Position numbers and translations under genes: made by a program
The notes under the pieces: generated by a model
Told to the model about the DNA's origin: nothing
The model's input: the letters and a program-made list of their open reading frames with translations, nothing else
Databases searched by the model: none
Shown here: positions 4,980 through 15,986 of the stretch, one piece after another
Position numbering within the stretch: the first letter of the stretch is position 1
Layout of the letters: each line of letters opens with the position of its first letter
Assembly (NCBI RefSeq): GCF_019219095.1
Contig: NZ_JAHUWH010000001.1
Coordinates: forward strand, 806,001 to 870,000
DNA: 64,000 bases
Origin: Acidovorax sp. sic0104
GTDB taxonomy: Bacteria; Pseudomonadota; Gammaproteobacteria; Burkholderiales; Burkholderiaceae_C
Reading direction: 5' to 3'

Positions 4980-5879
4980 TTACTTCTTGGCGTAGTCTTC
5001 CATTGGCTTGTCGTTAGGAGCTGCCCAGGCTGCCTTGGTGGCGTCGGAGATCGGCAGGCCGATCTTGGTGTTGGTCGGGGGCACGGGCTGCATGAACCAC
5101 TTGTCGTACAGCTTGGCCAGCGAACCATCGGAGATCTGGCGCTTGATGGAATCGTCCACTGCCTTCTTGAAGGCAGCGTCGTCCTTGCGCAGCATGCAGG
5201 CGATGGGTTCCACGTTCAGGACTTCGCCGACGATCTTGTAGTCGGCGGGGGCCTTGGACTTGGAGATGTTGGCAGCCAGGATGGAACCGTCCATCACGAA
5301 GGCGTCGGCACGGCCGGTTTCCAGCATCAGGAAGCTGTCGGCGTGGTCCTTGCCGAAGACTTCCTTGAAGTCGATGCCGCCAGCGCGCTCATGCTTGCGC
5401 AGGGTCTGCACCGAGGTGGTGCCCGTGGTGGTGGCCACGGTCTTGCCAGCCAGGTCCTTGATCGAGGTGATGCCCGAATTGGCCTTGGCAGCGATGCGCA
5501 CTTCTTCCACGTAGGTGGTCACGGCGAAAGCCACGTCCTTCTGGCGAGCGGCGTTGTTGGTGGTGGAGCCGCACTCCAGGTCCACGGTGCCGTTGGTCAC
5601 CAGGGGGATGCGGTTTTGCGAGGTGACGGGCTGGTACTTGATGTCCAGCTTGGCCAGGCCCAGCTGCTTCTGGATGTCGTGCAGGACGATTTCACCCATT
5701 TCGGTGTGGAAGCCCACGTACTTGCCGTTGCCCAGGGTATAGGAAAGACCCGAAGACTCGCGCACGCCGAGCGTCACACTGCCCGAGGCCTTGATCTTGG
5801 CCAGGGTATCCGTGGCTTGCGCGAAAGCGCTGCCTGCAGCGAGGGCGGTCACAGCAACCGCGAGCAAATGCTTCTTCAT
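4980..5879 (-). CDS. gltI: Glutamate/aspartate-binding periplasmic protein
   Basis: 299 residues with a clear signal peptide (MKKHLLAVAVTALAAGSAFAQ). The SBP family 3 fold is shown by ASGSVTLGVRESS at the mature N-terminus, DLECGSTTNNAARQKDVAF (ligand pocket) and RADAFVMDGSILAA. It delivers glutamate or aspartate to GltJK. AAGGAG lies 7 bp before the ATG. It is the first gene of the gltIJKL operon. Neighbouring DEBP paralogues are common, and one lies 118 bp upstream. Confidence 0.93.
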   Translation of the reverse strand: MKKHLLAVAVTALAAGSAFAQATDTLAKIKASGSVTLGVRESSGLSYTLGNGKYVGFHTEMGEIVLHDIQKQLGLAKLDIKYQPVTSQNRIPLVTNGTVDLECGSTTNNAARQKDVAFAVTTYVEEVRIAAKANSGITSIKDLAGKTVATTTGTTSVQTLRKHERAGGIDFKEVFGKDHADSFLMLETGRADAFVMDGSILAANISKSKAPADYKIVGEVLNVEPIACMLRKDDAAFKKAVDDSIKRQISDGSLAKLYDKWFMQPVPPTNTKIGLPISDATKAAWAAPNDKPMEDYAKK

Positions 5880-5997
5880 GAGAATCTCCTTGTATGTGAA
5901 GCGAAAGGACAGAGGGGAATTTTAGGGCTCGTCACCAGCCGGGGTCACCGGCGGGCCAAGCATCCCAAAAAGGGGGTACGCGACCAGGGATTGTTAG

Positions 5998-6897
5998 TCA
6001 GAACGGAACCTGGTCGGTAGGGTATTTCCAGAAGTCCCGCAGCAAATAGCTGACGGGGAGGTTCAGCACCGTGTTGGTGGGAGGGATGGGCTTGTTGAAC
6101 CACTTGTCATAGATGGGGTAGATGTCGCGGCTGGTGATGAGCCGCCGCATCTCCTCGTCCACCAGCTTCTTGAACTCGGGGTCGTTCTTGGGCAGCATGA
6201 TGGCCAGCGGCTCGGTGGTCATGAACCGGCCCACGACCTTGAGCGCCTTGGGGTCTGGACGCCCGGCCGCCAGGCCGTACAGCAGCACGTCGTCCATCAC
6301 GAAGGCATCGGCCTCGCCCTTTTCCACCATCTCGACCGCCTTGGCGTGGTCGGGCGCCTCCACGATGGTGATACCCATCAGGCGCTCGCGGTTGGCCTGG
6401 TCGGCGGCTTTGAGAGGCGTGGTGCCCTTGGTGGACACCAGCTTCTTGCCGTTGAGGTCTTCCACCTTGTCGATGGGGCTCGCGGACTTGACCAGCAAGC
6501 GCGCGCCGGTAATGAAATGGGGGATGGTGAAGGCGACCTTCTGGCGCCGCTCGGCGTTGTTGGTGGTGGAGCCGCACTCCATGTCCGCCTTGCCCTGCTC
6601 GATCATCGTGATCCGGTTGGCCGGCGTGACGGCCACGAACTCGATTTCCATGTCCTTCTTGCCGGTCTTCTTGCGCACCACATCGGCCAGGCGCAGGCAC
6701 AGGTCCACCGCATAGCCCACCGGCTTGCCAGACTGGGAATCCACGTACGAAAACGGCACGGACGACTCGCGGTGGGCAATCACCAGCTTGCCGCCGGCAC
6801 TGACACGCTCCAGCACGGTGGCGGCCTGCACGGGCATGGCCAGCGCAGCGCACAGGGCGGCAAGGCCTGCTGCGAATCCCGATGGCTGTACTTTCAT
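5998..6897 (-). CDS. Second GltI-like amino-acid-binding protein
   Basis: 299 residues from the ATG at 6895-6897, preceded by AGGA. The longer frame upstream lacks a signal peptide at its start. A signal peptide ends at MPVQAAT. The fold and motifs parallel GltI: RESSVPFSYV, DMECGSTTNNAERRQKVAF and EADAFVMDDVLLYGLAA. It is 118 bp upstream of gltI on the same strand and has no permease of its own. It may feed the same GltJKL channel with a related acidic amino acid, or be a regulated alternative receptor. Confidence 0.88.
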   Translation of the reverse strand: MKVQPSGFAAGLAALCAALAMPVQAATVLERVSAGGKLVIAHRESSVPFSYVDSQSGKPVGYAVDLCLRLADVVRKKTGKKDMEIEFVAVTPANRITMIEQGKADMECGSTTNNAERRQKVAFTIPHFITGARLLVKSASPIDKVEDLNGKKLVSTKGTTPLKAADQANRERLMGITIVEAPDHAKAVEMVEKGEADAFVMDDVLLYGLAAGRPDPKALKVVGRFMTTEPLAIMLPKNDPEFKKLVDEEMRRLITSRDIYPIYDKWFNKPIPPTNTVLNLPVSYLLRDFWKYPTDQVPF

Positions 6898-7072
6898 GCG
6901 ACGTCCTGTGGTGTGAATGAATCGGTTTTGCAATGTTCGTGCCAAGCACCCTGAGCAACCCACGCTGCAGCGGCCGATTCAGCGATGGCGCGAACTGTAC
7001 GTGTCGTTACCATGAAACTCCAATGCCGTTTGCGGGCGCAACTATGCAAAGTGTTTATATCCGTATTTACCC

Positions 7073-10174: not shown

Positions 10175-11209
10175 ATGAAACTGCGCACCTTCCTGACCTC
10201 CGCCTTGGCCGCCGCTGCGGCACTGGCCTTCACGGCCCCCGCCGCCATCGCGCAGACCGCGTACAAGAGCGAGTACCGCATGTCCCTGGTGCTGGGCACC
10301 GCCTTCCCCTGGGGCAAGGGCGGCGAGCTGTGGGCCAACAAGGTCCGCGAGCGCACCAACGGCCGCATCAACATCAAGCTGTACCCCGGCGTGTCGCTGA
10401 TCCAGGGCGACCAGACGCGCGAATTCAGTGCGCTGCGCCAGGGTGTGATCGACATGGCCGTGGGCTCCACCATCAACTGGTCGCCCCAGGTCAAGCAACT
10501 GAACCTGTTCTCGCTACCCTTCCTGTTCCCCGACTACGCGGCGGTGGACGCGGTGACGCAGGGCGACGTGGGCAAGCAGATCTTCGCGACGCTGGACAAG
10601 GCCGGCGTGGTGCCGCTCGCCTGGGGCGAGAACGGCTACCGCGAAATCTCCAACTCCAAGAAGGCCATCAAGACGCCCGAGGACTTGAAGGGCCTGAAGA
10701 TCCGCGTGGTGGGCTCGCCCCTGTTCCTGGACACCTTCACCGCGCTGGGCGCCAACCCCACGCAAATGAGCTGGGCCGACGCACAGCCCGCGTTCGCCAG
10801 CGGCGCCGTGGACGGCCAGGAGAACCCCATTGCCGTCTACATGGCCGCCAAGCTGCACACCGTGGCCCAGAAGCACGTGACGATGTGGGGCTACGTGAAC
10901 GACCCGCTGATCTTCGTGGTCAACAAGGACATCTGGGCGTCCTGGACGCCCGCCGACCGTGAGATCGTGAAGCAGGCCGCCATCGACGCCGGCAAGGAAG
11001 AGATCGCCATCGCACGCAAGGGCATGGTCGAGGCCGACAAGCCGCTGCTCAAGGACATCGCCGCCAACGGCGTGACCGTGACGCAGCTCTCCGCCGCCGA
11101 GCGCGCCGCCTTCGTGAAGGTCACGCGCCCGGTGTACGACAAGTGGAAGGGCCAGATCGGCGCCGACCTGGTGACGTCGGCCGAGAAGGCGATCGCGGCA
11201 CGCAAGTAA
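10175..11209 (+). CDS. TRAP transporter periplasmic receptor (DctP type)
   Basis: 344 residues with a signal peptide ending at AIAQTA. The DctP fold is shown by GRINIKLYPG, ALRQGVIDMAVGS, an LKGLKIRVVGSPLF segment with the substrate-clamping arginine, and FASGAVDGQENP. It binds a carboxylate for DctQM. AAGGAG precedes the ATG by 9 bp, stronger than the site for dctQ, as expected for an abundant receptor. It is the last gene of the operon and is followed by an intrinsic terminator. Confidence 0.92.
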   Translation: MKLRTFLTSALAAAAALAFTAPAAIAQTAYKSEYRMSLVLGTAFPWGKGGELWANKVRERTNGRINIKLYPGVSLIQGDQTREFSALRQGVIDMAVGSTINWSPQVKQLNLFSLPFLFPDYAAVDAVTQGDVGKQIFATLDKAGVVPLAWGENGYREISNSKKAIKTPEDLKGLKIRVVGSPLFLDTFTALGANPTQMSWADAQPAFASGAVDGQENPIAVYMAAKLHTVAQKHVTMWGYVNDPLIFVVNKDIWASWTPADREIVKQAAIDAGKEEIAIARKGMVEADKPLLKDIAANGVTVTQLSAAERAAFVKVTRPVYDKWKGQIGADLVTSAEKAIAARK

Positions 11210-11228: not shown

Positions 11229-11269
11229 AGCTTCCAGCGCTTGTACATCAATCGCTGGAAGCTTTTTTT
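11229..11269 (+). terminator. Intrinsic terminator of dctQMP, built from an interspersed repeat
   Basis: An 11-bp perfect stem, AGCTTCCAGCG (11229-11239) with CGCTGGAAGCT (11253-11263), is followed by seven Ts. The surrounding sequence (GCTATCAAA, AGCGCTTG) belongs to the short AT-containing repeat family also seen near 12972, 19030, 36396, 53915 and 58163. The 3' end of the convergent MazG-PIN gene is encoded inside it. Confidence 0.88.
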
Positions 11270-12951
11270 CCTTGTAGTTTGGGATAAATGAGACCGCTAC
11301 CGCCCAGCGAAGGCGCCACTTCTTTGCGAGCCTCCAACAATGTGCAGACCAACTGCGCCATGGCTTTGGGGTCGGCGGCCCTGGTTGCATGCGTCTCGAT
11401 GAACTTGAGCAGACCCGTTCTACGCGTGGGCCTGTTCTTAGGCATCTTCTTCAGGCTGGCGAGCACTGCCTGGGCAATCTGCGCTGCCTTGGGCTGGGGA
11501 GCCACCTTGTCAGGGGTTGTCTTTGTCGGCGTAGCCATCTTTTGGGCTGGGGCTACGTGCTTCTTTGGCGCTGCGGGACCGGCCGGGTAACTCACCCCAT
11601 TTCCTTTGAGCACGACGTGCTTGAGCGCCTGCAACTGCGCCAGAGCACCGGCAACCCGGGGCGATACCGCGCCTATTTCTCCTAGAAAGACCTGGAGCAA
11701 CGCCAACAAGGCGTCCTTGCGCACAGGCCGCTGCACCAATGGCATGGTTTGCAGCAATTCCGCAAGCCGTTGCACGTCTTGGCGAGTAGCTTTGGAACTC
11801 GAGGTGGAGCTGGAGTTTCTAGCTAGCGCGAGCCCCTTGGTGGTTGACTTGCTTCGCATCGGCGATGGTGGAGTAGCTTGCTCAACAGGCGCGGCCAGGG
11901 CGGCCTTCTTAGCCGTTGCAGCCACTTTAGGCAATGCTGGCTGAGGTGGAACGGGCAAGACGAACTGTTGCGCCAGCAGGTCGCCCCGATCAACGAGTAG
12001 CTTCCAGGCGCTCCGGGCAAGCCCGTCTTTGTCCTTAACGTCCTGCGCAATGAAAAGCCGGAAGTAAGCCAACACCGCATCCTGTTCCCGAGGACGCTTA
12101 GCGAGGGGAATGAAACGCAGATTCGAGCCTGCGTTTTCAGCGAGTTGTTGCACAAGGGCCGCCTCAATTGCACTGGATGCAGGCTGTACATCAGCAGGCA
12201 CCGGGTCTAGCGCCGGAATTTCGGGCGGCATCGCACTGGGTTTTGACTTGGCCACGCGCGGTAACTTGCGGACCTCGCATCGCCATGCATCAAAGCCCAA
12301 CTCGCGGGCATGCTCCAGCATGGGGTCGTAGCCTGTGTCGTTCGACACTACAACGAACCGTTCCTGCGGCTGGCGGGCAGAGATGTAGCCTATGTAATAG
12401 CTCAGTTGAAAATCCAGTGCGTTCTTTTTAGTCACGTCTGGTCGGGGAATCAGAGTGACCCTGCTGGGACCATATGCCTGCAAGTGGCTTGAGGCGTCTA
12501 CTTTCTGCCTGGGTCCGTGGAACAGCCAGACGTCGGTTCCCTGAGGCACCAGCTCTCTCAGCTCTTCCCCGGACGGTTGCACGTTTTCCCAGTCGATGAG
12601 CAGATGCCCCTTCGGTCCGGGCGCGGCCTTCTCTGGGTGTTTGGCCGGGTATTTTTCCGCGTTCTTGCGCATCTTCCGCTCCACCGCATCTTCCACATCC
12701 ACGCCCGTGCAATCGGCCAGTTGCAGCAGATACAACAGCACATCGGCGATCTCGTCGCCCACGCGTTCCTTGTCCGCCGCATTGCGCGTGAGCGTGTTCG
12801 ACTGCTCCGTGGTCAGCCACTGGAACAGCTCCAGCAATTCCGCCGCCTCCACCATCAGCGCCATTGCCAGGTTCTTGGGCGAGTGGAAAGATCGCCAATC
12901 TCGCGCGGCCGCGAAGTCTCGCAGGCGCGCTTGCAGGGCTTTCAAATCCAT
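11248..12951 (-). CDS. MazG-like / PIN-like nuclease / three-repeat fusion protein
   Basis: 567 residues with an unusual architecture. Residues 1-105 resemble a MazG-like NTP pyrophosphohydrolase, with metal-binding acids in EAAELLE (35-41) and ERVGDEIAD (62-70). Residues 115-230 look like a PIN/NYN ribonuclease: LLIDWENV (Asp120), NALDF (Asp180) and SNDTGYDP (Asp205, Asp209). The rest holds three divergent copies of a roughly 65-residue module (about 262-330, 390-457, 490-557). These have a shared pattern of a hydrophobic helix, P..xRPxR and a terminal YP, separated by Ala/Pro/Lys/Ser-rich linkers. The modules may be winged-helix-like nucleic-acid binders. The last six codons are made of the dctP terminator stem. 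The gene stands alone. Family matches come from motif recognition. Nucleotide-pool cleaning plus RNA cleavage, perhaps for defence, is inference. Confidence 0.75.
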   Translation of the reverse strand: MDLKALQARLRDFAAARDWRSFHSPKNLAMALMVEAAELLELFQWLTTEQSNTLTRNAADKERVGDEIADVLLYLLQLADCTGVDVEDAVERKMRKNAEKYPAKHPEKAAPGPKGHLLIDWENVQPSGEELRELVPQGTDVWLFHGPRQKVDASSHLQAYGPSRVTLIPRPDVTKKNALDFQLSYYIGYISARQPQERFVVVSNDTGYDPMLEHARELGFDAWRCEVRKLPRVAKSKPSAMPPEIPALDPVPADVQPASSAIEAALVQQLAENAGSNLRFIPLAKRPREQDAVLAYFRLFIAQDVKDKDGLARSAWKLLVDRGDLLAQQFVLPVPPQPALPKVAATAKKAALAAPVEQATPPSPMRSKSTTKGLALARNSSSTSSSKATRQDVQRLAELLQTMPLVQRPVRKDALLALLQVFLGEIGAVSPRVAGALAQLQALKHVVLKGNGVSYPAGPAAPKKHVAPAQKMATPTKTTPDKVAPQPKAAQIAQAVLASLKKMPKNRPTRRTGLLKFIETHATRAADPKAMAQLVCTLLEARKEVAPSLGGSGLIYPKLQGKKASSD

Positions 12952-13030: not shown

Positions 13031-13963
13031 TCAGATCGGCGACACCGGCACCTCGCCCGCGAGGTGTCGGCGCGCGTTCTCCAGGAAGCGGTCCACAGAC
13101 GCCTGCACCGCCTCGGGCGACCAGCCGGCCACGTGGGGGGTGAGCACCACGGTGTCCAGGTCGATCAGTTCAGCCGGCGGCGCAGGCTCGCTCTCGTACA
13201 CGTCCAGGCCCGCGCCCGCGATGGTGCCGTCGCGCAGGGCCTGGGCGAGCGCAGCGGTGTCGATCACGCTGCCGCGCGCGATGTTGACGACGTGGCCGCC
13301 AGGCCCCAGGGCCTGCAGCACCTGCGCGTTGACCAGGTGCTGCGTGCCGGCGCCTCCAGGCGTGGCCACGACCAGAAAGTCTGCCCATTCGGCCAGCGCC
13401 GCCACGTCGGCAAAGTAGCGGTAGGGCACATCGGCACGCGCACTGCGGTTGTGATAGCCCACCTCCATCTCGAAGCCCAGCGCCCGCTGCGCGATCTTCT
13501 TGCCGATGGTGCCCAGGCCGATGATGCCCAGGCGCTTGTGCGACACGTTGGGCGGCAGCGGCAGCGCCGTTCGCCACACGCCCTGGCGCGTGAGGCCGTC
13601 GAGCCTGGGAATGCCGCGCACCGTGGCGATCAGCAGGCCGAAGGCGTGGTCAGCCACGCAGTCGTCATTCGTGCCGGCACCATTGGCCACCACGATGCCG
13701 CGCGCCTTGGCATGCGCCACCGCGATGTTCTCGTAGCCCGCACCCAGCGCGCAGATGAGCGACAACGCGGGCAGGGCATCGATCTGCGCGGCGCTCAGTC
13801 CCGTGGCACCGATGGTCAACACCACGGTGACACGCGTCCCGTGCTCTGTCATGGCGGCAGCCGCCTGAGCCGCATCCGGCGCGTAGATCACCTCGAACGA
13901 CCGCGCCATCTGGGCGCGGTGCTCTTCGGACAGGAACATGAGGGCAAGCAGGACAGGTTTCAT
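13031..13963 (-). CDS. D-isomer-specific 2-hydroxyacid dehydrogenase
   Basis: 310 residues from the ATG at 13961-13963; the open frame further upstream is repeat-rich noncoding sequence. The Rossmann motif is GIIGLGTIGKKIA. Catalytic residues follow the family: Arg in NIARGSVID, Glu in DVYESEP and His in LTPHVAG. It should reduce 2-oxoacids with NAD(P)H, and the glyoxylate/hydroxypyruvate type is likely from its length. No obvious operon partner exists: a MazG-PIN gene lies downstream and an ABC exporter upstream on the same strand. Substrate is not assigned. Confidence 0.9.
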   Translation of the reverse strand: MKPVLLALMFLSEEHRAQMARSFEVIYAPDAAQAAAAMTEHGTRVTVVLTIGATGLSAAQIDALPALSLICALGAGYENIAVAHAKARGIVVANGAGTNDDCVADHAFGLLIATVRGIPRLDGLTRQGVWRTALPLPPNVSHKRLGIIGLGTIGKKIAQRALGFEMEVGYHNRSARADVPYRYFADVAALAEWADFLVVATPGGAGTQHLVNAQVLQALGPGGHVVNIARGSVIDTAALAQALRDGTIAGAGLDVYESEPAPPAELIDLDTVVLTPHVAGWSPEAVQASVDRFLENARRHLAGEVPVSPI

Positions 13964-14092
13964 GGGAGCAGATGGAACAGATGGAACCAAAAAACAAGAA
14001 TCAATGGCTTGAACAGAACAAGGGGCACGCAGCACCAGCATCGGCCAGCCCCCCACAGCGCATGCAACGAGCCCAGCCCCGCCAGCGCCACC

Positions 14093-14161
14093 GTGGAACC
14101 GGCTTTGCCGGGCCACCGGTGGCGCCCCCCTCAGGGGGATGGCGCGCAGCGCCTCAGGGGG
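14093..14161. repeat. GC-rich interspersed repeat, second copy
   Basis: About 70 bp starting GTGGAACC with a CCCCCC...GGGGG hairpin, clearly related to 3374-3444. It lies immediately downstream of (and slightly overlaps) the stop of the Atm1-type exporter gene. The 84-bp in-frame insertion at 36984-37067 carries related CCCCCCGAGGGGG and GGGGCGGCCC blocks. Confidence 0.65.
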
Positions 14162-15986
14162 AACTCTCATTCTGCAGCGCCCACATGCTCGCATACCGCC
14201 CGCGCTGCGCCAGCAGTTGTGCATGCGTGCCGCGCTCAAGGATGCGGCCCGCCTCCATCACCAGGATCTCGTGCGCATCGACCACCGTGGACAGGCGGTG
14301 CGCGATCACCAGCGTGGTCTTGTTCTGCGCCACGCCCTGCAGTTCGGCCTGGATGGCGCGCTCGTTGGCCGAGTCCAGCGCCGAGGTGGCCTCGTCGAAG
14401 ATGAGGATGGGCGGGTCTTTCAGCAGCGTGCGCGCGATGGCCACGCGCTGCTTCTCGCCGCCCGACAGCTTGAGCCCGCGCTCGCCCACCATGGTGGCGT
14501 AACCCAGCGGCGTGCTGGCGATGAAGTCGTGGATGCGCGCGGCGCGGGCCGCGGACTCGATCTCGGCCTGGCTGGCGCCCGGCCGGCCATAGGCGATGTT
14601 GTAGGCGACCGTGTCGTTGAAGAGCACCGTGTCCTGGGGCACGATGCCAATCGCCTGGCGCACGCTGGCTTGCGTCACGCTGCGGATCTCCTGGCCCGCG
14701 ATGGTGATGCGGCCCTGCTGGATGTCGTAGAAGCGAAACAGCAGGCGCGCCAGCGTGGACTTGCCCGAGCCCGAGGGCCCCACCACCGCCACGGTCTTGC
14801 CGGCCGGGATCTCGAAGCTCACGCCATGCAGGATGGTGCGGCCAGCCTGGGGGTCGTAGGCGAACTGCACATCCTCGAAGCGCACGGTGGGCTCTGCAAG
14901 CCCCGCCAGTGGCAGGGCCCCCGGCGCGTCGGCCACTTCGCGCTCGCGGTCTAGCAGTCGGAACATCTTGTCCAGGTCGGTCAGGTTCTGCTTGATCTCG
15001 CGGTAGATCACCCCCAGGAAGTTGAGCGGGATGTACAGCTGGATCATGTAGGCATTGACCATGACGAGGTCGCCCAGCGTCATGCTGCCCGCCGCCACGC
15101 CCTGCGTGGCGCGCCACAGCATCGCGACCAGGGCCGTGGCGATGATGAGCTGCTGCCCGGTGTTGAGCAGCGACAGCGTGAACTGCGCCTTGATGCGCGA
15201 CTGGCGATAGCGGTCCAGGCTGTCGTCGTAGCGCCGGGCCTCGAAAGCCTCGTTGTTGAAGTACTTGACCGTCTCGTAGTTCAGCAGCGAATCCACGGCC
15301 TTGGTGTGCGCGGCCGAATCGAGCTCGTTGGCCTCGCGCCGGTATTTGGTACGCCATTCGGTGACGGTGACGGTGAAGACGATGTAGCAGGCCAGCGCCA
15401 GCACCGTGATCCAGGCGAACCACGCATCGAACTTCACGGCCAGGATGGTGAGCACCAGCGCCACCTCGATCAGCGTGGGCACGATGCTGTAGAGCGAGTA
15501 CGAGATCAGCGACTCGATGCCCTTCACGCCGCGCTCGATGTCGCGCGTCATGCCGCCGGTCTGTCGCTCCAGGTGAAAGCGCAGGCTCAGCGCGTGCAGA
15601 TGCTCGAACGTGGCCAGCGCGATGCTGCGCGTGGCGCCTTGCGTGGCGCGCGAGAACACCAGCTCGCGCAATTCGGTGAACAGCGACGTCGACAGGCGCA
15701 GCAGCCCGTACGCCACCAGCAGCCCCACGGGCACCACCAGCACCGCCGTGGGGTCGCCAGGCTTGATGCTCATCGCATCGACCAGGTTCTTGAGCAAGAG
15801 CGGCACGCTCACATTGGCAACCTTGGCCCCGACCATGAACAGCAGGGCCGCGAGCACGCGCCACTTGTACTGCCAAAGATAGGGAAACAGGCGCGAGAGC
15901 GTGGACCAGTCGGACTGCGCGGAAGCTGCTGCGGCGGTGCCTGGGTGAGTGGGAAGGGGGGAGGTGGCTTCGCCGGTGCGGCGCAT
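14154..15986 (-). CDS. ATM1-type ABC exporter (fused permease and ATPase)
   Basis: 610 residues from the ATG at 15984-15986; a TTG three codons upstream is possible. The six-helix transmembrane domain (about 30-320) contains RFHLERQTGG and NYETVKYFNNE, hallmarks of Atm1/ABCB7 exporters. The ATPase domain carries Walker [10 protein letters not shown], signature LSGGEKQRVAIAR and Walker B ILIFDEATSALD. Bacterial members export glutathione-metal or glutathione-persulfide conjugates and confer heavy-metal tolerance. It stands alone and divergent from the YciA-like gene, with a 44-bp gap. Confidence 0.9.
   Translation of the reverse strand: MRRTGEATSPLPTHPGTAAAASAQSDWSTLSRLFPYLWQYKWRVLAALLFMVGAKVANVSVPLLLKNLVDAMSIKPGDPTAVLVVPVGLLVAYGLLRLSTSLFTELRELVFSRATQGATRSIALATFEHLHALSLRFHLERQTGGMTRDIERGVKGIESLISYSLYSIVPTLIEVALVLTILAVKFDAWFAWITVLALACYIVFTVTVTEWRTKYRREANELDSAAHTKAVDSLLNYETVKYFNNEAFEARRYDDSLDRYRQSRIKAQFTLSLLNTGQQLIIATALVAMLWRATQGVAAGSMTLGDLVMVNAYMIQLYIPLNFLGVIYREIKQNLTDLDKMFRLLDREREVADAPGALPLAGLAEPTVRFEDVQFAYDPQAGRTILHGVSFEIPAGKTVAVVGPSGSGKSTLARLLFRFYDIQQGRITIAGQEIRSVTQASVRQAIGIVPQDTVLFNDTVAYNIAYGRPGASQAEIESAARAARIHDFIASTPLGYATMVGERGLKLSGGEKQRVAIARTLLKDPPILIFDEATSALDSANERAIQAELQGVAQNKTTLVIAHRLSTVVDAHEILVMEAGRILERGTHAQLLAQRGRYASMWALQNESSP

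Follow-up and report, generated by a model that had tools for sequence, protein, structure and literature searches.

The stretch of DNA analysed here (64,000 nucleotides from Acidovorax sp. sic0104, hereafter the window) contains a gene that had been picked out, in a reading of the sequence alone, as a MazG-like hydrolase fused to a PIN-like nuclease and three repeat modules. The open reading frame, which encodes 567 amino acids on the minus strand, is real, and the order proposed for its parts (MazG, then PIN, then three related modules) was borne out by Pfam, by fold and by profile comparison. The features of the gene and its two immediate neighbours are listed in Table 1.

Table 1. Features of the fusion gene and adjacent genes in the window
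Feature	Coordinates	Strand	Basis and remarks
MazG-PIN7-module fusion gene	11248..12951	minus	Open reading frame, 567 aa, ATG start; Pfam domains; aligned with 37 other fusions
dCTPase-type (RS21-C6-like) MazG domain	12634..12951	minus	Residues 1-106; putative ligands E35, E38, E67 and D70 intact
PIN7 nuclease domain (predicted)	12295..12600	minus	Residues 118-219; D120, E122, N123, N177, D180 and D205 invariant in 38/38
Module 1	11965..12180	minus	Residues 258-329; helical, divergent, without wing
Module 2	11578..11790	minus	Residues 388-458; winged-helix-like
Module 3	11281..11493	minus	Residues 487-557; winged-helix-like
2-hydroxyacid dehydrogenase (presumed)	13031..14239	minus	Open reading frame; locus conserved; neighbour, outside the fusion
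TRAP transporter DctP-type binding protein (presumed)	10175..11209	plus	Open reading frame; locus conserved; convergent neighbour

The fusion gene is flanked by a 2-hydroxyacid dehydrogenase/ABC transporter pair on one side and by a TRAP transporter on the other, the dehydrogenase and the DctP-type protein bearing names that we presume from their sequences. The ABC-transporter/MazG/TRAP locus holds the fusion in six genomes (that of the window, G000, together with G020, G011, G049, G297 and G280), with the variations that the dehydrogenase was unmatched in G049, G297 and G280 and that three open reading frames intervene in G011. When the 22 best-matching standalone MazG loci (L010-L031) were read with 1.5 kb flanks, the same ABC transporter was adjacent in all of them, and therefore this one site can be occupied either by the fusion or by an ordinary MazG gene. 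Fusion genomes also contain seven further MazG copies (L155-L161) away from this canonical locus, and fusions in other genera have neighbours that are mostly different from those in the window.

Third-position GC declines along the fusion gene, from 79% in the MazG part to 68% in the PIN part and 64% in the tail, with five neighbouring genes at 82-95%. Elsewhere in the window, at 4980-6963 on the minus strand, there are two adjacent, related substrate-binding-protein-like genes, which stand side by side in relatives too.

Domains of the fusion protein

Two Pfam families recognised the N-terminal part of the window protein, MazG-like at residues 33-105 (E 1.6e-15, 57.6 bits against a cut-off of 27) and MazG at residues 24-102 (E 1e-5, 26.1 bits against a cut-off of 22). 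By sequence the nearest solved structure was archaeal 4qgp (1.5e-22), with mouse and human DCTPP1/RS21-C6 matching at 2e-16 to 2e-18, and the model of the domain superposed on solved dCTPases with a TM of 0.73-0.80 by target and 37-44% identity (18 matches at E<=0.001; Foldseek E-values of 2.6e-5 to 9.8e-4 for 4qgp, DCTPP1 and RS21-C6 structures). A MazG fold is present, as had been proposed for this end of the protein, and the acidic stretches singled out earlier, at residues 35-41 and 62-70, include E35, E38, E67 and D70, which we take to be the metal ligands of the MazG/dCTPase motif. In an alignment of the 38 fusions this putative set of four is complete in the window protein.

The second domain matched the Pfam family PIN7 over the whole profile (residues 118-219 of the protein, 1-103 of the profile; E 2.3e-24, 86.5 bits against a cut-off of 34). 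Three aspartates that the sequence-only reading had put forward, Asp120, Asp180 and Asp205, were invariant in all 38 fusions, as were E122, N123 and N177 beside them, but a fourth, Asp209, was not conserved, being D in 7 of the 38. The same D/E/N/N/D/D set was invariant in 21 aligned PIN7 domains (10 fused, 11 standalone) drawn from both Pseudomonadota and Bacillota. These catalytic residues speak, in terms of sequence, for a working nuclease. The PIN7 profile had no match among PDB sequences up to an E-value of 5, so it is from membership of the family that nuclease activity is predicted, and PIN-like superfamilies also include inactive and DNA-acting members. The NYN profile reached 15.7 bits (E 0.022) in the window protein, under its cut-off of 24.2, which places the domain outside NYN/DUF88 by this measure.

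Homology of the C-terminal modules was tested with an iterative profile that takes in its own hits, using 2300 shuffled tails as the control. We found that the three modules of the window protein, each of about 60-70 residues, are homologous, with E-values of 6e-11, 2e-18 and 6e-22 (flattered, because the iteration incorporates its own hits) as against 0.0075 for the best shuffled tail; the three divergent but related modules described earlier are thereby confirmed. At least one module of the family was found with the profile in 43 of the 46 PIN7 tails examined. Modules 2 and 3 show in full the pattern P..xRPxR...YP by which the modules had originally been recognised, but module 1 has 'RPR' without the YP end.

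In an AlphaFold2 model of the full fusion, made with 19 sequences, the MazG domain is all-alpha, the PIN domain alternates alpha and beta elements, and three C-terminal units follow at about residues 258-329, 390-455 and 489-555, with low-confidence linkers between the units and a pTM of 0.32. It had been anticipated that residues 262-557 would form three similar folds; all three modules were indeed predicted as confident helical units, with blocks mostly above a pLDDT of 80, but the likeness does not extend to the wing: a short beta hairpin resembling one ends unit 2 and, with less clarity, unit 3, and is missing from unit 1. The last two units were also modelled separately, with the same outcome. 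When this second model was used in a fold search, many winged-helix chains were among the 50 listed PDB matches, none of them at E<=0.001, and these weak matches included SelB, cullin WHB, linker histone, AraR and GntR-type regulators. On the strength of the models, modules 2 and 3 are winged-helix-like and plausibly nucleic-acid-binding; if so, the earlier suggestion that the modules supply their own targeting would be a reasonable one.

No Pfam family was found for the winged-helix-like module, and its profile gave chance-like matches only against PDB sequences (best 0.052). An OST-HTH/LOTUS identity was considered for the modules and rejected: Pfam gave it no support, OST-HTH being absent from the 14 families weakly matched by C-terminal pieces of eight homologues, and none of the fold matches was significant.

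Distribution and history of the fusion

The set of fusions was assembled from searches of relatives, of genus and family samples and of named genomes, after which the loci were read, and it holds 38 fusions; these come from 37 genomes or records, two being in one genome. In the genus sample, taken as Acidovorax in a wide sense, the fusion was present in 7 of 47 genomes. For the family sample the figure is at least 27 of 398, a lower bound because 45 of the 63 matching places were read and the remaining 18, weak matches with frames of 127-310 aa, were left out. The MazG-PIN7-module combination is real and recurs in Acidovorax and its relatives. An artefact of assembly or frameshift that joined two adjacent genes, for which we found no supporting point and whose chance we regard as negligible, is ruled out by the occurrence of 38 fused open frames across these genomes or records and by dN/dS values well below 1 for both domains in the nine pairs tested.

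In 40 relatives that belong to the order but to other families, no match covered both the MazG and the PIN parts, and a class sample of 274 genomes, searched at E<=1e-30 (a threshold that could hide a divergent fusion), gave just two lone MazG genes besides the window. A search across the order with the module profile matched 16 of 250 genomes. PIN7 was also present at 10 of the 15 non-window loci, in 10 open reading frames that are without MazG and come from several other families; like the eight standalone tails that were examined, each of these has one module. Since PIN7 and module occur without MazG in other families of the order, the unit of PIN7 with one C-terminal module is probably older than the fusion.

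Some loci of the order search differed from this arrangement. At three (L194, L198 and L204) the module was present and PIN7 was not detected at E<=0.01, so that either PIN7 has diverged there or the module is combined with something else, and at two more (L206 and L207) the weak module matches look like chance. One protein of 383 aa from another family (L201) has PIN7 and a long tail whose middle looks module-like by eye, with the profile finding the last module alone; going by this tail, the number of modules may have grown on more than one occasion. PIN7 relatives also occur on plasmids, in 27 of 72,556 records, 25 of them typed as conjugative. On Proteus plasmid Rts1 (L171) and on a Variovorax plasmid (L172) the relative lies among hypothetical genes and transposases.

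In a tree of the PIN domain the fusion parts lay on one side of a branch and 16 standalone domains on the other (94/76, not starred). Fused and standalone copies intermingle in the MazG tree, where five changes are needed, three of them forced by well-supported forks. Each tree was built on about 105 columns, and the MazG tree excludes the truncated copies L002, L163 and L162. A single gain of the fusion followed by repeated loss of the tail would fit these sequence trees best, with repeated replacement at the locus as a possible alternative history.

Alteration of the putative MazG ligands

The four putative ligands were intact in 30 of the 38 fusions and altered in eight, which belong to four lineages: five sequences of one Acidovorax group, plus G477, G327 and Caenimonas. 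They were intact in all 42 standalone MazG rows, among which one locus is counted twice. The resulting difference, 8/38 against 0/42 (Fisher p 0.0017), thus includes a double count and rows that are not independent. Truncated copies L002, L163 and L162 are part of the count, L002 and L163 being the same gene.

We also compared fusion genomes with and without a possible backup, using 36 of the 37 (that of L082 was left out). A further MazG-like match was found in 13 of these and none in 23; the fusion was altered in 6 of the 13 but in only 1 of the 23 (Fisher p 0.005, kinship ignored). Counted by independent lineage, decay accompanies a further copy in three cases as against one without, and the sole altered fusion lacking a backup is that of G477, a genome that is 87% complete. 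The ligand reading of the extra copies leaves out the second copy of G954. In all four of G021, G033, G040 and G045 the canonical locus is occupied by an intact standalone MazG and the altered fusion lies elsewhere, next to a response-regulator-like gene. We conclude that the association of decay with a backup is suggestive only.

The window fusion is the only MazG of its kind found in its genome, a truncated paralogue apart. This second copy (L163, G000:C82:211481-211714) has a frame that departs from the family once some 80 residues of the domain have passed and, because it is truncated, is a backup on paper alone; a similarly short copy is found in G045 (L162).

For the MazG domain, dN/dS was 0.09-0.19 in the altered Acidovorax fusions (six pairs) and 0.06-0.07 in intact ones (three pairs), and for the PIN domain it was 0.04-0.16 in all nine pairs, some of which are very close or saturated. 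As the altered MazG values are about twice the intact ones, some relaxation is possible. In the single clade tested, the altered domains are nonetheless, by this estimate, still under purifying selection, and since they are constrained they seem to be kept for a non-catalytic role, most simply as an oligomer scaffold or in nucleotide binding.

Possible functions and known analogues

The window protein is, from its sequence, a predicted (d)NTP pyrophosphatase and probable RNase with nucleic-acid-binding modules. Because both active sites are kept and it is the sole full MazG of its kind in its genome, we read it as a bifunctional housekeeping protein, that is, a nucleotide-pool cleaning enzyme with a PIN7/winged-helix tail, whose MazG part can become a scaffold or sensor; we give this reading a probability of about 0.5. 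The sequence-only reading had set its proposed nuclease against a housekeeping factor without nuclease activity. The MazG half does look like a housekeeping enzyme, but the invariant catalytic residues of the PIN half do not fit the remainder of that description.

In the mechanism that we propose, the dCTPase-type MazG would hydrolyse surplus or modified (d)NTPs. dCTPP1 forms tetramers, and the MazG half would oligomerise like its relatives, so that the oligomer would display several flexible arms, each with PIN7 and one to three winged-helix-like modules; the modules would grip the substrate, most likely RNA, for PIN7 to cut. The PIN7-module unit would have joined MazG in the family of the window protein. 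In genomes where no other MazG was found, the fusion nearly always keeps its MazG active site, and where a second MazG-like gene is present the fused site may decay with the domain still under purifying selection, the decayed MazG then perhaps serving the nuclease as a scaffold or as a sensor of nucleotides.

Another relationship between the halves can be envisaged, in which they are functionally independent passengers of one open reading frame and MazG merely tethers PIN7, which processes RNA alone, as in the standalone PIN7 proteins. It would be consistent with the existence of PIN7 and module as a separate gene, with the tail-less MazG that the 22 relatives read have at this locus and with the flexible linkers of the model (pTM 0.32); however, MazG is retained and constrained even where its active site is altered, and the fusions' PIN tails form a group of their own. 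Both points suggest that being joined is of benefit, and we consider the passenger arrangement somewhat unlikely. A further reading is that of a nucleotide-gated ribonuclease of a new class, with the ligand-less MazG as a pure (d)NTP sensor that switches the oligomer state and hence PIN7. We judge it improbable; were it true, RNA decay would be tied directly to the nucleotide pool, and the Acidovorax series of intact and altered fusions would catch an enzyme in the course of becoming a receptor. Very doubtful, in our opinion, is the reading that the tail acts on DNA in place of RNA, on damaged or gapped molecules for instance, and would thereby link the cleaning of the pool with repair of DNA. 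DNA nucleases are found in the PIN/FEN-like superfamily, and DNA-binding winged-helix proteins were among the weak fold matches. The RNA-binding winged helices of SelB were also among those matches, however, and the closest architectural analogues, bacterial proteins that combine an LK-nuclease with OST-HTH, are predicted to act on RNA according to the part of the source available (PMC2848206).

An anti-phage role had been suggested at the outset; in the form considered here, MazG would sense or drain nucleotides in infected cells, PIN would cut RNA and growth would stop. Two PIN-nuclease systems have been shown to defend and the MazG domain is among the predicted ones, as stated in the accessible part of the report (PMC13092281); the fusion is patchily distributed in genus and family, as the counts above show, and some fusions outside Acidovorax adjoin Mrr-type, AbiEi, RmrA, LmuA-like, HNH/QatD-like or NERD-helicase genes. 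Against this, the window protein matched none of the PADLOC families at E<=1, the locus of its clade is conserved and metabolic, and the number of PADLOC families matched by fusion neighbours was close to that for control loci: 93 for 105 of the 108 neighbours of 31 of the 38 fusion loci (the window's neighbours left out), compared with 97 for 93 control proteins at 19 loci, these being numbers of families and not of proteins. The control was crude, consisting of arbitrarily picked loci in 19 genomes (18 with the fusion and G128 with a standalone PIN7), with up to five open reading frames taken around the middle as against two on each side at the test loci, and family content is known for the best 25 of the 93 and of the 97. 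Among the matches listed were AbiEi, Drt8, DrmD and helicase models for the control loci, and ZorD, DpdE and PD-T7-1, as models without assignment to a protein, for the fusion neighbours; eight of ten neighbour proteins examined singly had matches. As the control also holds AbiEi, Drt8, DrmD and helicases, the neighbourhoods with NERD helicase, Mrr, AbiEi and RmrA, suggestive when taken one by one, were not counted as evidence. Viral relatives of the PIN part are few, with one partial match in 50,697 phage records and four matching loci in a scan of viral contigs. We therefore give the proposed anti-phage effector a low chance and regard a defence role at the window locus as unlikely; PIN7 itself, which has relatives on plasmids and belongs to a kind of domain known from validated defence systems, may have defence roles. 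In Caenimonas (L087, 1427-10462) the altered fusion has in its vicinity a PDC-S41-type protein, a NERD-UvrD helicase and, by eye, an NYN-like protein, surroundings that differ from those in the window and form a candidate defence island.

Under the housekeeping reading, the fusion would unite in one polypeptide two activities that are usually studied apart, nucleotide-pool cleaning and the cutting of RNA (or DNA). Nature offers a series (tail absent, tail with intact site, tail with altered site) in which the benefit of fusion is directly testable, and work on it would give a function to PIN7 and to the winged-helix-like module.

The architecture was apparently undescribed before, in agreement with the earlier remark that no described system has this order: no description was found in the literature, mostly non-subscription, on MazG with PIN, NYN, defence or pyrophosphohydrolase fusions. 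Its N-terminal domain resembles dCTPP1/RS21-C6 in identity, fold and the four putative ligands, but those solved relatives are chains of 110-170 aa made up of the MazG domain, whereas here a nuclease tail follows and the ligands are altered in some of the fused copies. Standalone PIN7 (PF18475) proteins, including the type found on plasmid Rts1, share the PIN7 domain and its invariant residues; they are without MazG and have one module per tail in the eight tails examined, compared with three in the window protein. Predicted defence systems from DefensePredictor list MazG among uncharacterised domains, and the available part of that paper describes no MazG-PIN fusion (PMC13092281), the context of the fusion here being metabolic. 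The design most like that of the tail is the one of LK-nuclease (DUF88/NYN-like) proteins with OST-HTH, in which, as far as the available part of the source goes, a PIN-superfamily nuclease is followed by one or more winged-helix-type modules predicted to bind RNA (PMC2848206), and the same succession of nuclease and modules is seen, in the partial account available, in human MARF1 (NYN-like with LOTUS repeats). PIN7 is a different Pfam family from their nucleases, the fusion modules have no OST-HTH match and those proteins lack MazG. By analogy, we take the LK-nuclease/OST-HTH proteins to be the closest working model for the window protein, which itself lies outside their family.
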